In this document: piece by piece, positions 11,956-41,710 of the stretch | How the letters are laid out: the number at the start of each line of letters is the position of its first letter | Position numbering within the stretch: position 1 is the stretch's first letter | From: Rhodanobacter sp. DHG33 | GTDB taxonomy: Bacteria; Pseudomonadota; Gammaproteobacteria; Xanthomonadales; Rhodanobacteraceae | Assembly: GCF_014843005.1 (NCBI RefSeq) | Contig: NZ_JACYXM010000003.1 | Location: 124,001 to 188,000 of the forward strand | Reading direction: 5' to 3' | DNA: 64,000 nucleotides | Position numbers and translations under genes: made by a program | The notes under the pieces: generated by a model | What the model was told of the DNA's origin: nothing | What the model saw: only the letters and a program-made list of their open reading frames with translations | Databases searched by the model: none

Positions 11956-13053
11956 CTAGAGCGGTGGCATGGTTTGTTCTCCCTGCCGCTCTTCCAGAAA
12001 CCAGCCGGCGGCGCCGATGACACCTAGCTGGCCGTGCTCAATCAGTCGTACGGGAACCTTTTGCAGATACGCGCGCATCACGCCCTTGTTGAAGTAGCGC
12101 TGGGCGAAACTGCTGGTGCGCAGGAAAGCGTGGATTTGCGGCAGGATGCCGCCGGCGAGAAACACCCCGCCGCTCGCGCCGTACAGCATCGCGAGGTCGC
12201 CGGTGAAGCTGCCGAGCAGGCCGCAGAACACCTCCAGCGCCTCCAGCGCCGCGGCATCGTGGCCGGCCAGCGCGGCGCCGGTGATTTCCGCCGGCGTCAT
12301 CAACGACACCGGGGTGCCGCGCAATTCGCACAGCGCGTGGTAGAGGTTGAGCAGGCCGGGACCGGAAAGCGCGTCCTCGCAGGAGACGTAGGCGCGGCCG
12401 CGCGCCAGCACGCGCAGGATCTCGATCTCGCGTTCGTTGCCGGGCGCCAGCGCGATCTGGCCGGCCTCGGTGGGCAGCACCTGCGCATGGCCGTCGCGCG
12501 GCAACAGCACCGCCGAGCCCAGGCCCGTGCCCGGCCCCATCACCAGCACCGGACCGTGCGACGCCGGCTGTGCGGTGTCGATCACCGGCAGCGTTTCGTC
12601 CGCGCCCAGGAACTGGGTGGCCCAGGCCACCGCCTCGAAATCGTTGATGACTTCCAGCTGCGCCAGCCTGAGCTGCTCGCGGAGCGCGCCGATGGATACC
12701 GGCCAGGGCAGGTTCTCGTTGACGATGCGGTCGTCCAGCACCACGCCGGCGCTGGCCACCACGCAACGGTGCACCCGCCCGGCCAGCGCGGCATGCCCGG
12801 CGGAAGGGAGTTGGCCCATGAAATCGCGCAGCACGCTGCCGAGGTCGGCCCAGTCGGCGCAGTGGTAACGGTGGTAGTGCAGCAGGCTGACCGGATACCG
12901 CTCGGTGGGCGTACCGAGCACCAGGCCGATGCGCGCGTGGGTGCCACCGACATCGGCGGCGAGAAACGGCTCACCGCGATCATGCGCTCCACTCGGTGCC
13001 GAAGACTGCGGCACCGGCTGCGCGACATGACGCTGGCTGGCGAACTCTCCCAC
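11956..13053 (-). CDS. glk: Glucokinase (Glk family)
   Basis: ATP-dependent hexokinase of the bacterial Glk family (not ROK), phosphorylating cytoplasmic glucose or a related sugar. The phosphate-1 motif AADVGGTHARIG, NDFEAVAWA and MGPGTGLGSA are visible. The GTG at 13053 is chosen because AAGGGGGA lies 7 nt upstream. It gives 365 residues with a short N-terminal tail of about 30. The in-frame ATG at 13149 is unlikely because it lies inside a LacI-type operator. It is divergent from the permease and shares its operator sequence. A second, unrelated glucokinase domain is encoded in the fusion at 38839-41148. In related sugar clusters this position can hold a GlcNAc kinase, so the substrate is not certain. 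Confidence 0.85.
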   Translation of the reverse strand: MGEFASQRHVAQPVPQSSAPSGAHDRGEPFLAADVGGTHARIGLVLGTPTERYPVSLLHYHRYHCADWADLGSVLRDFMGQLPSAGHAALAGRVHRCVVASAGVVLDDRIVNENLPWPVSIGALREQLRLAQLEVINDFEAVAWATQFLGADETLPVIDTAQPASHGPVLVMGPGTGLGSAVLLPRDGHAQVLPTEAGQIALAPGNEREIEILRVLARGRAYVSCEDALSGPGLLNLYHALCELRGTPVSLMTPAEITGAALAGHDAAALEALEVFCGLLGSFTGDLAMLYGASGGVFLAGGILPQIHAFLRTSSFAQRYFNKGVMRAYLQKVPVRLIEHGQLGVIGAAGWFLEERQGEQTMPPL

Positions 13054-32897: not shown

Positions 32898-34142
32898 TCA
32901 CGCCGGCCGCGGTGCCGGCGCCCCCACCCGTTGCGCGAGATCGGCCAGCACGTTCATGTAATTGATGCAGGCGTCGTAGGGCGATTCGAACGGGCTGAAA
33001 TACTGGTGCACGTCACCGTCGGCCCAGTGTTTGGTGGACATGTAGTAGGCGTGGTCGCTGGTGAGCAGCCGGCGCCAATCCTCCACCACGCGCACCGCAT
33101 CCGCCGCATGGCGCGCATGGTGCCGGCGCACGAACGGCTCCAGCGCGAAGGCTTCGGCCAGCGCGGCGCGCTGGATCGCGTTGCCGTCCCATGCGGAGGT
33201 ATCGCGCTCCAGGTCCGCCCAGGACACCGGATCGGGCAGGCTCAACGTCGCTGCGCCCACAGGCACCCGCGCCAAGGCTTGCGAGGGTGTGATGAAACGG
33301 AACCCGCCCCGCTTAAGCAGCTCGCCCGGCAGCGCACGCATGAAATCGAAGATGCCGGTATCGGCCCACTGGTGCTCGCCGAAGGTTTCGTAGTCCATGA
33401 ACAAGCCGAGAAAGCCGCGGCCATCAGCCTCGGGCGGCAGCGCAGCGGCTTCGCCCTGCAGCCAGTCGGCGTAACGCTCTACACCGAGCGGCCAGGCCGC
33501 CCATTGCCGGTCGGAGAAACGGAAAGCGATGTCGTCGCTGAGCCGGTAGTGCCGGGGCAGCGCCACCAACGACAGCGCCGCGGCATAGCGCCACGGCGCG
33601 GCCACGTTGCGCGTGCCGAACAGGCGGTCGGCGCCTTCCAGGCACAGGCCGCTGTAGCCCAGCGCCGCCACCTGGCTCGCCACCGCGTCGCTCACGATCA
33701 GCTCGGTGTTGCGAAATACGCGGCCGGGTGCGCCAAGCAGACGGCGGCACACCGCACGGTGGTGCCGTACCTGCGCGGCGAATTCGCGCGGGCTGTAGAG
33801 CGCGGCCAGGCTGTGGTGCGAGGTTTCCGCCAGCAGCTCCACCTGGCCGGTGGCGAGCAGGCGGCGGAACGACACCAGCACCTCGGGCGCGAACGCGGCC
33901 ATCTGCTCCAGTGCGGTGGCGGTGACCGAGAAGCTGACGCGGAAATGCGGGCGATGGCGCGCGATCAGTTTCAGCAGCAGGGCGTTCATCGGCAGGTAGC
34001 ACTTCTCGGCCACCCGCCGCAGGATCCGTGCATTCGCTTCGTCGTCGAAATAATCGTGCCGACGGCCGACGTCGCGGAACGGGTAGGGCCTCAGCCGCCA
34101 TGGCTGATGCACCTGGAAATAGAAGCAGACATCCAGACTCAT
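32898..34142 (-). CDS. Glycoside hydrolase family 57 (alpha-glucan-acting)
   Basis: Retaining alpha-glucan hydrolase or transferase of family 57, 414 residues. FYFQVHQPWRLR opens the barrel; Glu147 in FRNTELIVSD is the expected nucleophile and Asp250 in LFMDYETFGEHQW the acid/base. The ATG overlaps the stop of the upstream glycosyltransferase by 4 bp (ATGA). No signal peptide, so cytoplasmic. Family members are amylases, amylopullulanases, branching enzymes or 4-alpha-glucanotransferases; the sequence alone does not tell which. Its place after a glycogen-synthase-like gene suggests action on an internal glucan. Confidence 0.88.
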   Translation of the reverse strand: MSLDVCFYFQVHQPWRLRPYPFRDVGRRHDYFDDEANARILRRVAEKCYLPMNALLLKLIARHRPHFRVSFSVTATALEQMAAFAPEVLVSFRRLLATGQVELLAETSHHSLAALYSPREFAAQVRHHRAVCRRLLGAPGRVFRNTELIVSDAVASQVAALGYSGLCLEGADRLFGTRNVAAPWRYAAALSLVALPRHYRLSDDIAFRFSDRQWAAWPLGVERYADWLQGEAAALPPEADGRGFLGLFMDYETFGEHQWADTGIFDFMRALPGELLKRGGFRFITPSQALARVPVGAATLSLPDPVSWADLERDTSAWDGNAIQRAALAEAFALEPFVRRHHARHAADAVRVVEDWRRLLTSDHAYYMSTKHWADGDVHQYFSPFESPYDACINYMNVLADLAQRVGAPAPRPA

Positions 34143-35437
34143 AGGCCACCCCCGGCGAGGGTAGCCAGATCGACGCCGGCCACATGCGCATAAGCCTCCG
34201 CGATGCGCTGCGCCGACTCGTCCCACGACAACCGCGCCAGCTGCGCCTGTCCTTCTTCCACCAGCTGCCGCGCCAGCACCGGCAGGCGCAGCACCGCGAG
34301 GATCTGGTCGGCCAGTTTTTCGTGGTCCCAGAAATCCACCTGCAGGCTGTGCCCCAGCACCTCGCGCACGCCGGATTGCCGCGACAGGATCACCGGCGTG
34401 CCCGCACACAACGCTTCCAGCGCGACCAACCCGAACGGTTCGGACACGCTGGGCATCACCAGCAGGCTGGAGCGCGCCAGCAGCCGGTCCACTGCGCCCG
34501 GGGCGAGGAAGCCGCGGAATTCCACGCGGTCGGCGATGCCCAGCTCGCCGGCCTGCCGCTTCAGTGCGTCCAGCATGTCGCCGGTGCCGCAGATCAGGTA
34601 ACGGGCGGCGGGATCGAGCCGCGCCACCTCGGCGGCTGCGCGCAGGAAATGGTCCGGCCCTTTCTGGAAAGTGAGCCGGCCGAGGAATACCACCCATGGC
34701 TGGCGGATTTCCGACCCCGATGGAGGCGCCGGCGGCAGCGCGTCCTCGTCCGGCGCGTTGTAGACCACACTCACCTTGGCCGGATCGATGCCGTAGCGCG
34801 CCAGCAGCAGGCCGCGTGTGTAGTCGCTCACCGCGAACACGTGGTCCGCGCGTTCGCAGGCGATGCGCTCGATCGCCGCGATGTCGGGATTCGCTCCGTC
34901 GCCGCTGCGGTCGTATTCGGTGGAGTGCACGTGCAGGAATAGCGGCAGGCCATGCCGGTCGGCGGCGGCCATCGCGGCGGGGAAAGTCATCCAATCGTGC
35001 GCGTGCACGACATCGGCCTGCGCATCGTCGGCGATCGCCGCCACGCGGGCAGCGAAAGAAGCCACTTCGTGACCGAGGTCGCTGCCGTACAACGCTGCCG
35101 CATCGCCGGAGCCGTACGCATCCACATCACGCGCTGTTCTCTCCGAAGGTCGCGCATAAGGCTGCAGCCTGGACGTCACGCCAAGCCAGCGCGGCACGCG
35201 CTCCCCCCGTGGCGTGGCGCCGTGCTCGAGCAGCCATTCCCGCGCGCCGCTGACCTGCAGCCGCGTCTCGCCCTGCGCCTTGCGGAAACGCGGGAGCACG
35301 AACAGCACGTCCGCACCGAGGTCGGCCAGGCCACGCGCGATGCCCTGGCTGGCCTTGCCCAGGCCACCCACGTAGCGCGGCGGATACTCCCAACCAAGCA
35401 TCAGCACGCGCACGGAACCGTGGCGTTGCGAAGTCAT
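34139..35437 (-). CDS. Glycogen-synthase-like glycosyltransferase (GT4/GT5 type)
   Basis: GT-B fold transferase of 432 residues. The N-terminal GWEYPPRYVGGLGKAS matches the glycine-rich motif of glycogen/starch synthases and related GT4 enzymes. The C-terminal VMPSVSEPFGLVALEALCAGTPV contains the EX7E nucleotide-sugar motif. ATG 35437 lies 37 bp after the GH15 stop. The stop overlaps the GH57 start. It probably elongates an alpha-glucan from a nucleotide-glucose donor; a maltosyl or trehalose-related product cannot be excluded. Confidence 0.85.
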   Translation of the reverse strand: MTSQRHGSVRVLMLGWEYPPRYVGGLGKASQGIARGLADLGADVLFVLPRFRKAQGETRLQVSGAREWLLEHGATPRGERVPRWLGVTSRLQPYARPSERTARDVDAYGSGDAAALYGSDLGHEVASFAARVAAIADDAQADVVHAHDWMTFPAAMAAADRHGLPLFLHVHSTEYDRSGDGANPDIAAIERIACERADHVFAVSDYTRGLLLARYGIDPAKVSVVYNAPDEDALPPAPPSGSEIRQPWVVFLGRLTFQKGPDHFLRAAAEVARLDPAARYLICGTGDMLDALKRQAGELGIADRVEFRGFLAPGAVDRLLARSSLLVMPSVSEPFGLVALEALCAGTPVILSRQSGVREVLGHSLQVDFWDHEKLADQILAVLRLPVLARQLVEEGQAQLARLSWDESAQRIAEAYAHVAGVDLATLAGGGL

Positions 35438-35474: not shown

Positions 35475-37799
35475 TCATCCGTCTTTGGTTGCCGCCAGCG
35501 GCAACAGCAGGAGCGGCCAGTTGCGTCCTTCCCAGCCACGTTCGTCGAGGAAGCGGCGGGTGAACTCCAGCGTGCGCTGCGCACCCAGCGCCGCCACGTC
35601 CAGCTGCACGCCATGCAGCCCGAAGCCGATGGGTTGGCTGGGGTGGTCGTCCACCTGTTTCCAACCGTCGCGCCCCAGGTGCAGCACGAAGGGCGCGTCG
35701 GCTTCGACCAGCAGCGTGCCGTCGCGCTTCACCGTGCGGCAGGGCGCCTGCTCGCGCCAATGCGTCACCGCCGGCACGCGGGGCGCGGCATAGCGGTCGG
35801 CCACTGCGCGCAGGCGGTCCACCGGGCGGCCGAGGCGGATCGCGGCGACCAGCTTGATCAGTTCGGCATGCGCCCACGCCAGCGGCATCGCGCTGCCACT
35901 GGGGCGGCCGGGTTCCAGGCCGCGTTCGGGAATCGGCGCCGCATCCCACACCTGCTCTGGCAACATGCCTCCCTGGCTGGCGGAGGCGAGTATCGCGGCG
36001 AGGTAGGGCTTGGGATCCTCGCCGGCGAGCAGCGCGCAGAGCCCACGCTCGCCGCTGAGCAGCGGCCAAGCACGGCCTACGCCCTCGCCGTCGAAGGCAC
36101 GGCCGTCGTCGTGTTCGCCGTAACCGTCCTCGTTGTAGCGGTGGTAGTACGGGCCGCCGGGCAGGTCCACGCGCAGCACGGCATCGACCAGGCGGGTGGT
36201 GTCGCGGATGCGCGGATCGTCCGGCGCGCGCAGGCCCATGCGCACCAGGTAGAGGTATTCCAGACCCAGCAAATCCTTCGCGGCCACGGTTGCGCGACCG
36301 CGGTTGCGCAGGGCCACGTCGCCGTCCTGCGCGGTCTGCCCGGGCGGTGCAATGCGCACGTAATGGCCGCGCGTGCCGTGCTGGCGATCGAGCTCGGTGT
36401 CGCGCGCGTAGGTCCATGACTCGATGCGAGCATTCCAGTCGTCGGCCAGCGACAGTGCGTGCTCCGCATCGTCCGCGTCGAGGAAACCGTGCGCGGCGCC
36501 AGCGACCAGCGCCGAGATGGCGACGGCGAGGGTGAACGGATTGATGCCGGGGTTTTCCTCCCAGCGATCCTGGGCGCTGAAAGGGCCGGTACGCGCCACG
36601 AAACCGAGGGCGCGGCGCACCATGGCGATGGCCTGCGGACGCAGGTCACCGAGTTCGTCGATCTCGTCCAGCCTCGCTGCCAGCAGCACCGGAAAGGCTG
36701 CCTCGTCGAGTTGTACGCCGCCCCAATAGGGACGTCCGTCGGCGTAGAAATTCTGCAGCCAGTGCCCATCCGGCTGCTGTGTGGCGATGAGATACGCGAG
36801 CAGCGCGCGTGCTTCCGCATGATGGTCGCAGGCCAGCATGGCGAAGCCCGATTCCACCGCATCGCGCGGCCACACCAGGTGATAGCCGCCGGGATCGTCG
36901 TGCGTATCGCCCCACGGCACGCTGAGGCTGGCGATCATCGCGCCGGGAAAGTCGCGGTCGCCATGGGTCTTGAGCACCATGGCAGCGCGGCGCACCGCCT
37001 CTTGCAGCGTGGGTTCGAGGCCGTCGCACCGGATGTTTTCCGACCAGCGCTGCCAGCCGTCGATGAAATCCGTACGCGCCGCCTCGAAACCGCAGGCCAG
37101 CGATGAGAGTGCCAGCGTGCGTGCGCCTTCCACGGTGCCGGCAAAGCCGAGCGCAAGCACGCCATCGTTGCCGGCCAGTTCGCCGACCAGCGCCACGTTG
37201 CCGTTGGACGCGGTGTCGTACTGCCAGGTCATCGCACCGTTTCGCTGGAAGTCCTGCCAGCCATCCGACGCACCCACATAGCCGGCGCTGGCGCGAGTGA
37301 AACCGCGGTCGGCCGCGAGCAGCAACGCGGCGCCGGGCTTCATCGCGGCCAGGCCCTGCGCTTGCACCTCGGCGGTATTGCCGTGGCCGGAGCCGTCCAG
37401 GTGTGGCGCCAGCAACGCGTAAAGCTTTAGGCCTTCGCCATCCAGCCGATAGCGCACCAGCACCACGTCGCGCTGCGGATCGGCCAGCACTTCCAGTTCC
37501 AGCCGGTAACGCTCGTGCTGGTGGACGATTTTCGGCAGCGGCAAATCAGGCGCAGGCGTGGTCAGCTCATACCGGTTCGCACGCTTCACCTCGGCCCAGA
37601 AACCGTCGCCCGCGACGATGAAGCCGAGGTCGCGGATCTGCGGCGTGCTGCACGAAGGCCAGTACACCTCGTCGAGGATGCCGCGGCCCAGCGTGTACCA
37701 GACGCGCGCCGGGCCGAGCGCGGTACCGACCAGGTCCTTGTCGCTGCTCGCCCAAGTAGGCGACAGCCCCGGCCAGCCCGGTGCGTTGGCGATGTTCAT
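35475..37799 (-). CDS. Glycoside hydrolase family 15 (glucoamylase/glucodextranase-like)
   Basis: 774 residues: an N-terminal beta-sandwich (about 1-260) typical of bacterial GH15 enzymes, then the (alpha/alpha)6 catalytic barrel. HLVWPRDAVESGF, the acid region DRWEENPGINPFT and the base Glu615 in MLPEQVWD are visible. No signal peptide, so it acts on intracellular glucan or maltodextrin, releasing glucose from non-reducing ends. The ATG overlaps the gnd stop by 4 bp (ATGA). Trehalase or glucan-lyase activities also occur in this family. The upstream kinase-isomerase fusion would use the glucose it frees. Confidence 0.9.
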   Translation of the reverse strand: MNIANAPGWPGLSPTWASSDKDLVGTALGPARVWYTLGRGILDEVYWPSCSTPQIRDLGFIVAGDGFWAEVKRANRYELTTPAPDLPLPKIVHQHERYRLELEVLADPQRDVVLVRYRLDGEGLKLYALLAPHLDGSGHGNTAEVQAQGLAAMKPGAALLLAADRGFTRASAGYVGASDGWQDFQRNGAMTWQYDTASNGNVALVGELAGNDGVLALGFAGTVEGARTLALSSLACGFEAARTDFIDGWQRWSENIRCDGLEPTLQEAVRRAAMVLKTHGDRDFPGAMIASLSVPWGDTHDDPGGYHLVWPRDAVESGFAMLACDHHAEARALLAYLIATQQPDGHWLQNFYADGRPYWGGVQLDEAAFPVLLAARLDEIDELGDLRPQAIAMVRRALGFVARTGPFSAQDRWEENPGINPFTLAVAISALVAGAAHGFLDADDAEHALSLADDWNARIESWTYARDTELDRQHGTRGHYVRIAPPGQTAQDGDVALRNRGRATVAAKDLLGLEYLYLVRMGLRAPDDPRIRDTTRLVDAVLRVDLPGGPYYHRYNEDGYGEHDDGRAFDGEGVGRAWPLLSGERGLCALLAGEDPKPYLAAILASASQGGMLPEQVWDAAPIPERGLEPGRPSGSAMPLAWAHAELIKLVAAIRLGRPVDRLRAVADRYAAPRVPAVTHWREQAPCRTVKRDGTLLVEADAPFVLHLGRDGWKQVDDHPSQPIGFGLHGVQLDVAALGAQRTLEFTRRFLDERGWEGRNWPLLLLPLAATKDG

Positions 37800-38842
37800 T
37801 TCGCGGGTTTTTCGTCGTGGCCGCCAAAGGCGTGACGCATCGCCGACATCACCTGGTTGGCGTATTCGTCGTTGCCGCGCGAGGTGAAGCGGCCGAACAG
37901 CGCCGCCGTGAGCACCGGCGCGGGCACGCCTTCCTCGATGGCGGCGAGTGCCGTCCAGCGCCCCTCGCCGGAGTCGGACACGCGACCCGCGTAATGCTGG
38001 AGCGTGGGGTCCTTGCCCATTTCGATCGCGGTGAGGTCGAGCAGCCACGAGCCGATCACGCTGCCGCGGCGCCACAGTTCCACCACCTCGCCCAGCGGGA
38101 ACTCGTACTGGTAACGCTCGGGGTATTCCAGCGGCGAGGTCTCGGCGTCGGCGACCTGCTCCTGCTTGCCCACGTTGGCGCCATGCAGGATGTTGAGGCC
38201 CTCGGCGTAAGCCGCCATCAGGCCGTATTCGATGCCGTTGTGCACCATCTTCACGAAGTGGCCGGCACCGTTCGGACCGCAGTGGAGATAACCCTGCTCG
38301 GCCGGCGTGGGCTCGCCGGTACGGCCAGGCGAACGCTCCGCCGTGGCCACGCCGGGCGCCAGCGCGGCGAAGGCGGGCTCGAGGTGCCGGTAGGCTGCAT
38401 CCGGGCCGCCGATCATCTGGCAGTAACCGCGCTCGCGGCCCCACACGCCGCCGCTAACACCCACGTCCACGTACTGGATGCCCTTCTCGTCCAGTGCCTT
38501 GGCGCGGCGCAGATCCTCGACGTAATGCGAGTTGCCGCCGTCGATCACCATGTCGCCCGGGCTGAGCAGCGGCACCAGCGTGTCCAGCACCTTGTCGACC
38601 ACGGCGGTGGGCAGCATCAGCCACACGGCACGCGGGCTGGACAGCTTGCCCACCATCGCCTCGATCGAATCGGCGGCCTGCGCACCCGCTTTGGCGGCGG
38701 CGGCGCGCGCATCGGCATTGGTGTCGAAGGCCACGCAGTCGACGCCGGCCGCCTGCATGCGGCCCACCATGTTCAGGCCCATGCGGCCCAGGCCGACGAA
38801 ACCCAGTTGCAGCTTGCTATTTGCATCCGTTGTCATGCTCAT
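37796..38842 (-). CDS. gnd: 6-phosphogluconate dehydrogenase, decarboxylating (short form)
   Basis: Converts 6-phosphogluconate to ribulose 5-phosphate with CO2 release. The Rossmann motif [10 protein letters not shown], substrate-binding GGNSHY, the catalytic [16 protein letters not shown] and the [24 protein letters not shown] stretch are visible. The 348 residues match the short GndA-type forms, about 120 shorter than E. coli Gnd; that type often prefers NAD+. ATG 38842 overlaps the fusion gene stop by 4 bp. ATG 38836 two codons later has better spacing to GAGG and is an alternative. No zwf or pgl is present in the window. Confidence 0.92.
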
Positions 38843-41148
38843 GCCTCGTTGTTCCAAAGTCGAAATCCGCCGATGAAAGCGTTGGTGTTGTCGCCGCGGC
38901 GCACGCCTTCGGGCAAGGTGTCCAGACGATCCACGTTGCCGCCGCCGAGCACCACGTAATCGGGTTCCAGCGCGGCACGCAGGGTCTCGATCTCCTCGAG
39001 CACGTGCGCGCGCCACTTCTTGCCGCCGCGGCGCTCGCGGGCGGCCTCGCTGACGTAGTACTCGTAAGTGTGTTTGCGGTACGGCATGTGCGCCAATTCC
39101 ATCGGTTCGACCAGGCCATCCACGACCATCGCAGAACCTAGCCCGGTGCCAAGGCCGAGGAACAGCATGCGGCCGCCTTCGTAGCTGCCCAACGCCTGCA
39201 TCGCGGCGTCGTTGACCAGCTTCACCGGGCAGCCGAAGGCCTTGGCGAAATCGAAACCCACCCAGCCTTTGCCGAGGTTGGCCGGCTCATGCACGATGCG
39301 CCCGTGCGCCACCGGCGCGGGGAAGCCGATGCTCACCGCGTCGTATTTCCAGCCGCGCAGGCTCTTGCGCAGGCCAGCGACCATCTGCTCGGGCGTCATA
39401 TCCGGCCCGGAAGGGATCTTCACTTCCTGCTTGCGCCCGGTGCACATGGCCTTGACGTGGGTGCCGCCCACGTCGAGCACCAGCACGCGCCGGCCCGTCG
39501 CCGTCGTACCGGCTGCCGGTGTCTTGCCGCGTGCTCGGCGGTACCAGCGGATCGCCGCGTTGGTGGATGCATCGTGCGCCAGCGGCTTGCGCGGCGATTC
39601 GATCTCCTCGGCCACGCGCAGCGCGAGCTGCTTGCCCAGTTCCACGCCCCACTGGTCGAACGGATTGATGTCCCAGATCGCCGCCTGCACAAAGACGCTG
39701 TGCTCGTACAGCGCCACCAGCGCGCCCAGCGCAGCGGGCGTGAGCCGCTCGGCCAGCAGCAGGCTGGACGGCCGGTTGCCTTCGAACACCTTGTGCGGCG
39801 CGAGCTTGGCCGGCACGCCTTCCGCCTTCACCTCGGCCAGCGTCTTGCCCATCGCCAGTGCCTCGGCCTGGGCGATGACATTGGCCAGCAGCAGATCATG
39901 ATGGTTGCCCAGCGGATTCAGTGCCGCGCCGAAAGCGATGAAGTCGCACGGAATGAGCTGCGTACCCTGGTGGATCAGCTGGTAGAACGAATGCTGCCCG
40001 TTGGTGCCTGGCTCGCCCCAATAGACCGGCCCGGTGGCGTAGTCCACCGCCTTGCCTTCCAGCGTGACGTGCTTGCCGTTGCTCTCCATCGTGAGCTGCT
40101 GGAGATAGGCGGGGAAGCGCTTGAGGTATTGCTCGTAGGGCAGCACCGCCACCGTGGCGGCATCGAAGAAATCGGCGTACCACACGCCGAGCAGGCCCAT
40201 GATCGCGGGCAGATTGCGCTCGAGCGGCGTGGTGCGGAAGTGCGTGTCCATGGCGTGGAAGCCGGCCAGCATCTCGCCGAACGCCTCGGCGCCGATCGCG
40301 ATCATGGTGGACAGGCCGATCGCCGAGTCCATCGAGTAGCGCCCGCCCACCCAGTCCCAGAAGCCGAACATCTGCTCCGTGGGAATACCGAAGGCGTTCA
40401 CCGCTTTCTCGTTGGTGGACAGCGCGATGAAGTGCCGGCCCACCGCCTTCGCGTTCTTCTTGCCGGCCGCGGCCAGCAACCAGTCGCGTGCGGTGTGCGC
40501 GTTGGTCATCGTTTCCAGCGTGGTGAAGGTCTTGGAGGCGACGATGAACAGCGTCTCCTCCGGACGCAGGTCGCGCACGGCCTCGGCGAAATCGGTGCCG
40601 TCCACGTTGGAGACGAAGCGGAGCTGCAGTCCGCGGTCGCTGTAGTGGCGCAGCGCCTCGTAAGCCATCACCGGACCGAGGTCGGAACCGCCGATGCCAA
40701 TGTTGACGATGTTGCGGATCGGCCGGCCGCCATAGCCCTTCCACTCGCCCGCGCGGATCGCGCCGGCGCATTCACCCATGCGCTTGAGTGTTTCCTGGAC
40801 TTCCGGCACCACGTTCACGCCGTCGACCAGGATCACGCTGTCGGCCGGCGCGCGAAGCGCCACGTGCAGCACGGCGCGATGTTCGGTGCTGTTGATCTTC
40901 TCGCCGGCGAACATCGCGTTGCGCTTCGCTTCCAGCCCGCGCTCGCGGGCCAGCGCGAACAGGCGCTTCATGGTGTCGGCGGTGATGCGATGCTTGGAAT
41001 AGTCCAGCCGCCAGCCGGCGCCTTCGGCCGTGAAGCGTTCGGCCCGCGCCTCGCCCTTGGCGAACAGCTCGCGCAGATGGAGCTTCGACACCGATGCGTA
41101 ATGGGACTGCAGCGCCTTCCAGGCCGGGCTTGCGCGCAGCGGGCTCAC
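38839..41148 (-). CDS. pgi: Glucose-6-phosphate isomerase fused to a C-terminal ROK glucokinase
   Basis: A single open frame of 769 residues. Residues 1 to about 535 are a complete phosphoglucose isomerase ([70 protein letters not shown]). After a short Gly/Thr/Arg linker a ROK kinase begins near residue 550: [13 protein letters not shown] phosphate loop, [11 protein letters not shown] with the catalytic Asp, and [15 protein letters not shown]. The kinase half resembles polyphosphate/ATP glucokinases. The fused protein could convert glucose to fructose 6-phosphate. The GTG at 41148 has GGGGAGA 7 nt upstream and overlaps the stop of a 28-codon ORF. I know of transaldolase-isomerase fusions, but not of this pairing as a described enzyme. 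Confidence 0.9.
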
Positions 41149-41231
41149 GCGGCTGTCTCCCCGACCCGGCGGATCGCGTCCGGCTCCCATACCCAGCCAT
41201 GCCACCTCGATGTGAAGATCATGCCTTGCAT
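41145..41231 (-). CDS. 28-residue leader ORF coupled to the isomerase-kinase gene
   Basis: ATG at 41231 follows a near-perfect Shine-Dalgarno AAAGGAG at 7-nt spacing. The ORF encodes a 28-residue Trp-rich peptide (starting [19 protein letters not shown]) and its TGA overlaps the GTG of the fusion gene as GTGA. That geometry and the strong ribosome site argue that it is translated. It could set translation of the downstream gene or be a small protein in its own right; I do not recognise the sequence. Two TTGACA/TTGACG hexamers lie upstream at 41364-41359 and 41343-41338 as possible -35 elements, without clear -10 boxes. Confidence 0.55.
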
Positions 41232-41413
41232 CGCAAAACTCCTTTCAGCGCAGGTTTGCAAAGCCGGTGCGTCGACGGCTCCGGCCATCGATGGAATCTT
41301 CGCGGGATACGTGAAGTTGTGCCAGCGTCACCGTAGCCGTCAAGCCTGTCAGCGCCGATGTCAACTGCAAATGAATGGAGTGCGGCTGAGCCCGTTTCTG
41401 CTGCGGGCAACAA

Positions 41414-41440
41414 AAAAGCCCATGCGCTGCATGGGCTTTT
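41414..41440 (-). terminator. Terminator of the tRNA-Met gene
   Basis: Perfect 12-bp inverted repeat AAAAGCCCATGC / GCATGGGCTTTT with a GCT loop, immediately downstream of the tRNA. The arms supply the T-run in both directions. Confidence 0.85.
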
Positions 41441-41451
41441 CCGGAATTGCA

Positions 41452-41528
41452 TGGTGGCTATGGGTGGACTCGAACCACCGACCCCAGCATTATGAGTGCT
41501 GTGCTCTAACCGGCTGAGCTACATAGCC
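41452..41528 (-). tRNA. tRNA-Met(CAT), elongator type
   Basis: 77 nt including an encoded CCA. The acceptor GGCTATG pairs with CATAGCC. D-loop AGCTCAGCCGGTTAGAGC, anticodon loop CTCATAA (anticodon CAT), and T-loop GGTTCGAGTCC are present. The first base pair G1-C72 and the overall sequence match the elongator, not the initiator, methionine tRNA. A tRNA-Ile with modified CAT is less likely from the body sequence. Confidence 0.93.
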
Positions 41529-41710
41529 ATGGGGCGGTCGCCGTGCCGGATCGCAACGATGCCGGAGGCGGGGCGCGGCAGTTTAATGGCGCGCACGCCC
41601 ATGTTCAAGCCGTCCGGCTTGCCGCGGTCCGGCCTGCGTGGTTGAATCGGTCCATCGCCTCGCACGCACCGGCTGCCGCCGTTGCGCGGCTTGGCCACAG
41701 GATTGACGAG

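Follow-up and report, generated by a model that had tools for sequence, protein, structure and literature searches.

The window, a 64,000-nucleotide stretch of DNA from Rhodanobacter sp. DHG33, carries on its minus strand a gene in which phosphoglucose isomerase (PGI) is joined in frame to a short sugar kinase of the ROK type. The gene, its parts and its neighbours are as follows.

38839..41148, minus strand: pgi::rok fusion gene, 769 amino acids, GTG start at 41148, stop at 38839-38841
39529..41148, minus strand: phosphoglucose isomerase half, residues 1-540 (PF00342 full profile; 3nbu alignment; Foldseek target TM 0.95)
39487..39528, minus strand: linker, residues 541-554 (14 residues), with the lowest model confidence at 547-551
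38842..39486, minus strand: ROK-type short sugar kinase half, residues 555-769 (PF00480; 3lm2; 1woq; conserved motifs)
37796..38842, minus strand: gnd, NAD+-type 6-phosphogluconate dehydrogenase, 348 amino acids (TIGR00872, 387 bits, above the cut-off of 297)
35475..37799, minus strand: GH15 glucoamylase-like enzyme with a glucodextranase N domain, 774 amino acids (PF09137, PF00723)
34139..35437, minus strand: GT4 glycosyltransferase, glycogen-synthase-like (TIGR02149, 117 bits, below the cut-off of 302)
41455-41528, minus strand, that of the fusion: tRNA gene, upstream of the fusion

The minus-strand frame is free of stop codons from 41205 down to the stop at 38839, and a domain search of the 769-residue protein places PF00342 and then PF00480 on one polypeptide. 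Together, the open frame and the domains bear out what an earlier note on this DNA had claimed, namely a complete isomerase and a kinase in one uninterrupted frame. The length it gave, 769 residues, also holds with the GTG at 41148 as start, which corresponds to the MSALR... beginning common to the homologues and has GGGGAG eight bases upstream. The gnd ATG overlaps the fusion stop (ATGA) and the GH15 ATG overlaps the gnd stop, so the fusion-gnd-GH15 run looks like a tight operon. A scan of positions 41100-41600 for promoters and terminators found none. The GH15 protein scores 576 bits with TIGR01535 (glucan 1,4-alpha-glucosidase), under its cut-off of 742, and no N-terminal signal was seen in it by eye. 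The GT4 gene lies in a frame open from 35614, with the ATG at 35437 (MTSQRHG...) as its presumed start.

The isomerase half is covered by PF00342 over positions 1-486 of the 486 in the profile (E 5.8e-212, 705 bits, cut-off 22), and a score of 822 bits with NF001211, whose cut-off is 492, places it in the PGI family. Its motif stretches align with those of solved PGIs. Six PGI motifs, among them GGSDLGP and SK(T/S), are present in all 29 fused proteins compared, and the tail pattern HD..TN is present in 28. The usual PGI C-terminal tail is retained: the half aligns to 3nbu through the last residue of that structure, whose tail at the aligned C-terminus reads HDSSTNGLINRYKAWRG. The architecture presents the picture of a complete PGI, its stop lost, ahead of a complete kinase. 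In a search that scored at most five candidates per genome and included some genomes less than 90% complete, 27 of the 29 genomes that carry the fusion in a single frame have no PGI match besides it, the exceptions being the window's genome and G077. This sole-PGI status argues for isomerase activity.

The kinase half belongs to the ROK family by PF00480 (E 2.9e-07, 30.8 bits against a gathering score of 22.9). It falls well outside the named glucokinase groups, with 66.5 bits against a cut-off of 250 for polyphosphate glucokinase (NF045942, PolPhglucPhase) and 19 bits against 260 for ROK glucokinase (TIGR00744). Two unfused relatives of the kinase score 66.1 and 66.5 bits with NF045942, likewise far under the cut-off. 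The closest solved relative is 3lm2, labelled 'Putative kinase' (E 9.1e-82), followed by the polyphosphate/ATP glucomannokinase 1woq (E 3.1e-15). The resemblance to polyphosphate/ATP glucokinases proposed in the earlier note therefore stands as kinship, but it is a distant one. Seven kinase motifs, including ND, GLGTGLG and EL(A/S)H, occur in 29 of 29 fused proteins; strict versions of these patterns match 8-12 of 29 standalone rows, most of which are distant relatives. The motifs that the note had named for both halves are found in the fusion, and we take the PGI and kinase motifs to be active-site stretches of their families. Among plasmid-borne relatives, 35 of the 40 listed (60 in all) are annotated 'ROK family protein' and five carry no annotation. 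The kinase half looks like a member of an unnamed ROK subfamily. It probably acts on glucose. In PMC4252912, the aspartate of the connect-1 motif is described as believed essential in related polyphosphate glucokinases. The window also holds a second glucokinase at 11956-13053, which is of another family (PF02685), as the note had said; it reaches 178 of 920 bits with NF010701, under the cut-off.

The linker ranges from 9 to 19 residues and is variable in sequence among the 29 fused proteins. An AlphaFold model built from 97 rows (mean pLDDT 92.6, pTM 0.73) has two domains and a weak spot at 547-551, in the linker; an earlier model from 24 fused rows was poor (pLDDT 65.4) and was set aside. 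Foldseek matched the model to solved PGIs with a target TM of 0.95. The 50 matches listed, out of 245 at E <= 0.001, are all PGIs, so the evidence for the kinase fold is its similarity in sequence to 3lm2 and 1woq. Over six pairs, NG86 estimates of dN/dS are 0.02-0.16 for the PGI half and 0.08-0.35 for the kinase half, the kinase value being the higher in every pair, in one of them barely. By these estimates both halves are constrained, the kinase less so.

The fusion lies in one frame on one contig in 29 of 197 genomes of the family Rhodanobacteraceae (L003-L031), and none of the 29 has a stop codon between the halves. In one of them, G077, a contig end cuts off the PGI N-terminus; in G119 and G187 contig ends cut elsewhere, and the junction is read through in both. 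A search with the kinase alone found matches in 36 of 233 family genomes. Five of these are distant (~40% identical; G003, G011, G029, G045 and G058) and are not joined to PGI, and 31 are close and are all fused. By genus code, the 31 are distributed as 4 of 15 genomes in g1, 16 of 16 in g18, 1 of 1 in g23, 6 of 13 in g25 and 4 of 5 in g13. Of the 16 g18 genomes with the fusion, 15 have no other PGI match, and in G187 the gene is in two pieces on two contigs. Named relatives (80 of 576 confirmed loci) include Rhodanobacter glycinis (86% identical), Dyella flava and Dyella choica. Wider searches gave 32 genomes with a match among 299 of the order, 12 of them at fused length and all 12 in Rhodanobacteraceae; 9 among 369 of the class, with fused length in the window's own genome and G880; and 16 among 398 of the phylum, with fused length in the window's own genome only. 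The kinase sequence of G880 is that of L069, a Natronospirales MAG. "Natronospirales" MAGs are a second lineage with the fusion, and the junction is open there as well.

GC-rich DNA has many long open frames, and the halves could in principle be separate genes in life that chance read-through or an assembly error has joined. The earlier note had pointed to a frameshift or assembly error near 39480-39560 as one event that would undo its claim. However, 31 of 31 genomes read through the junction, and the linker, which differs in length and sequence from protein to protein, has no ATG in common. We give this explanation virtually no credence, and it is rejected at the level of DNA. By eye, the junction DNAs of the 29 genomes have no ATG in common that could be a hidden internal start for a free kinase. 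GTG codons are common at the first kinase strand, and an internal GTG start giving a free kinase may therefore exist.

Seventeen distinct fused loci were inspected with their flanks, and four zwf-like genes among them were checked by Pfam. In 15 of the 17 loci the fusion is followed by gnd, and at 14 of these 15 zwf comes after gnd, the window being the exception. In the window, gnd and GH15 overlap by four bases (37796-37799), and the absence of zwf is clean, with no broken gene. The genome has two zwf genes elsewhere, one of them adjoined by an ordinary second PGI and a PGM-like gene. Since an ordinary PGI and two zwf genes are available elsewhere and the operon has no zwf, the fusion may be partly redundant in this genome. 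GH15 is present in nine fused loci (L063, L064, L068, L069, L071, L143, L144, L145 and L150) and absent from five that bear gnd (L065, L066, L146, L147 and L148, from a Dyella-type genus and G023); in one (L067/L149) its position is beyond the contig end. Because 5 of the 15 loci with gnd have no GH15, glucan feeding is not general. GT4 is found in the same nine loci as GH15, partially in L071. This gene (34139-35437 in the window) travels with GH15 in the cassette, and its product might be the glucan that GH15 breaks down. Two g13 loci, L151 and L152, have the fusion without gnd, zwf or GH15, and in L151 its neighbours are a DUF489 gene on one side and a TPR/sulfotransferase gene on the other.

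Standalone relatives of the kinase were examined at 37 loci, a part of all matches, in a stretch reaching at most ~12 kb from the kinase. Among these loci, 23 have one or more of gnd, zwf, GH15 and PGI within the stretch; the other 14 have no such partner gene there, and some of the contigs are short. The order GH15-gnd-zwf-kinase occurs at 11 of the 37 (L158, L193-L198, L200 and L210-L212), where L195 and L211 are near-copies and the partner genes of L158 are matched in fragments. Martelella, Pantoea and Allorhizobium have unfused kinases in operons of this order, and Deinococcus gobiensis has zwf-kinase-GH15. In another gammaproteobacterial family, kinase, PGI, gnd and zwf follow one another as separate genes (L227:9379-14148), the gene set of the fused cassette in its pre-fusion state. 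Elsewhere, in genus g4 (L154:1708-5202), a 1164-residue frame combining GH18, polysaccharide deacetylase and GT2 directly precedes gnd and a distant standalone kinase.

The fusion probably arose when a PGI with its normal C-terminal end intact was joined to the kinase of a gnd-zwf cassette that already existed. In a PGI tree made by a quick method from 90 of 113 PGI rows (rows less than 62% identical were dropped, and the fused MAG rows L064, L068, L069, L071 and L219 were left out), 29 of 29 fused rows fall on one side of a branch with SH-aLRT 79. The ordinary PGI of the window's genome groups with other Rhodanobacter PGIs. In a first kinase tree (58 rows, 29 fused), standalone kinases nest among fused ones under starred branches, and a single fused clade is not rejected (p-AU 0.143); in a second tree (62 rows, 34 fused, with 9 distant rows dropped), p-AU for a single fused clade is 0.345. 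The kinase trees are compatible with a single fusion event, and two independent fusions may also account for them. One unfused PGI, in G006 (L153:9379-10992), groups with the fused PGIs at 74% identity and has sulfate permease and UreD genes nearby; it may represent kinase loss or a state before fusion.

The fusion is patchy in genus g1. The relatives nearest to the window by gnd are G069 and G174, whose gnd genes are 91% and 90% identical to that of the window, and both have an ordinary-type PGI match. G069 matches the NUDIX-tRNA part and gnd, including the tRNA stretch at 41455-41528, which is conserved, and is without the fusion, GH15 and GT4. G174 keeps gnd, and the same three genes are absent. 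In G069, a short QueD-like gene, identified by eye, occupies the place of the fusion between the tRNA and gnd (L213:8934-9411).

Judged from sequence and gene context, the fusion is very probably a bifunctional active enzyme in which both halves work. A flexible tether would join the PGI and a glucose kinase on one polypeptide. GH15, where present (9 of 14 readable operons), perhaps frees glucose from an alpha-glucan, and the kinase half would convert that glucose to G6P. The PGI half would interconvert G6P and F6P, either turning F6P that comes back from the non-oxidative branch into G6P again or letting G6P pass on to glycolysis, and Zwf and the NAD-type Gnd would oxidise the G6P. Both halves would then serve one pool, G6P. 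Convergence of the two halves on G6P is the likelier arrangement because both the operon and the unfused relatives link the kinase with zwf and gnd, in many cases together with GH15. On balance, we lean toward supply of G6P for the oxidative pentose phosphate route as the main role. The open frame, its domains and conserved motifs, the neighbouring genes, the conservation and the sole-PGI status in most carriers are direct observations, whereas we infer both activities, glucose as the sugar, the direction of flux and a cytosolic GH15.

The fusion might instead be a glycolytic entry enzyme, in which G6P made by the kinase is handed on as F6P by the tethered PGI, with or without channelling. The two reactions are indeed consecutive, as the earlier note had observed in proposing that glucose is channelled through G6P to F6P, and in g13 the fusion has no pentose phosphate genes alongside. 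Moreover, most carriers show no PGI match besides the fusion, so in these it must also take part in glycolysis or gluconeogenesis. Channelling as its purpose fares less well, however: the gnd and zwf neighbours point to the oxidative pentose phosphate route, with gnd after the fusion at nearly all inspected loci, and across phyla zwf, gnd or GH15 lie beside kinases that are not fused. PGI works near equilibrium, so there would be little gain from channelling. Glycolytic entry as the main role thus seems rather unlikely to us. We find it more doubtful still that the kinase half lacks glucokinase activity and is a ROK domain, either regulatory or acting on another sugar, that is carried along by PGI. 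Scores far under every curated ROK or polyphosphate glucokinase cut-off that the half matched are consistent with such a domain, as are the bare 'ROK family protein' names of the plasmid relatives, the noncommittal label of 3lm2 and the higher dN/dS of the kinase half. Nevertheless, the ND, phosphate and sugar-contact motifs are kept throughout the fused proteins, and the presence of zwf, gnd and GH15 nearby speaks for glucose and G6P.

Supply of G6P to the oxidative route can be taken further, to a 'G6P hub' that we offer as speculation and consider unlikely as a whole. Two tethered G6P-producing activities, one using glucose from stored glucan and the other recycled F6P, would come together with Zwf and Gnd to form a machine that runs the oxidative pentose phosphate route as a cycle. 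If the kinase, from its unnamed ROK subfamily, also uses polyphosphate, stored glucan and polyphosphate would yield reducing power without ATP.

If both halves work, the protein is a naturally occurring and evolutionarily stable fusion of enzymes that act at the main branch point of sugar metabolism. It suggests a function for the kinase subfamily to which 3lm2 belongs and points to a cassette, common to proteobacteria and a Deinococcus, that leads from sugar into the pentose phosphate route. In addition, it provides a natural case for asking whether tethering matters with a near-equilibrium enzyme.

We found no description of a PGI-kinase fusion in the open-access full-text literature, which misses most subscription journals, and the words 'fused' and 'fusion' are absent from the first 300,000 of the 383,257 characters of PMC12965863. 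Fusions of sugar-phosphate enzymes are already known, since transaldolase-PGI has its own NCBIfam model, and the pairing of PGI with a ROK kinase is a new variant among them. In that bifunctional transaldolase/phosphoglucose isomerase (NF007080), PGI is likewise fused to an enzyme sharing its sugar phosphates, but the partner is a transaldolase and not a kinase; only the PGI half of our fusion matches the model, at 68.7 bits against a cut-off of 712. The bifunctional glucokinase/transcriptional regulator (NF010701) is also a fused glucokinase, although of the other glucokinase family and with a regulator as partner, and it is matched by the window's second glucokinase and not by the fusion.

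In protozoa, a fused G6PD::6PGL enzyme reportedly exists (PMC10819308) that similarly joins enzymes acting where the pentose phosphate route begins, but it is eukaryotic and made of different enzymes. Among single kinases, 1woq and the polyphosphate glucokinase family NF045942 share with the kinase half ND, phosphate and ELxH stretches that align, whereas they are not fused to PGI and their similarity is distant, below the family cut-off. The structure 3lm2 resembles the kinase half over nearly its whole length, and differs in being a standalone chain of 226 amino acids with no function assigned in its listing.
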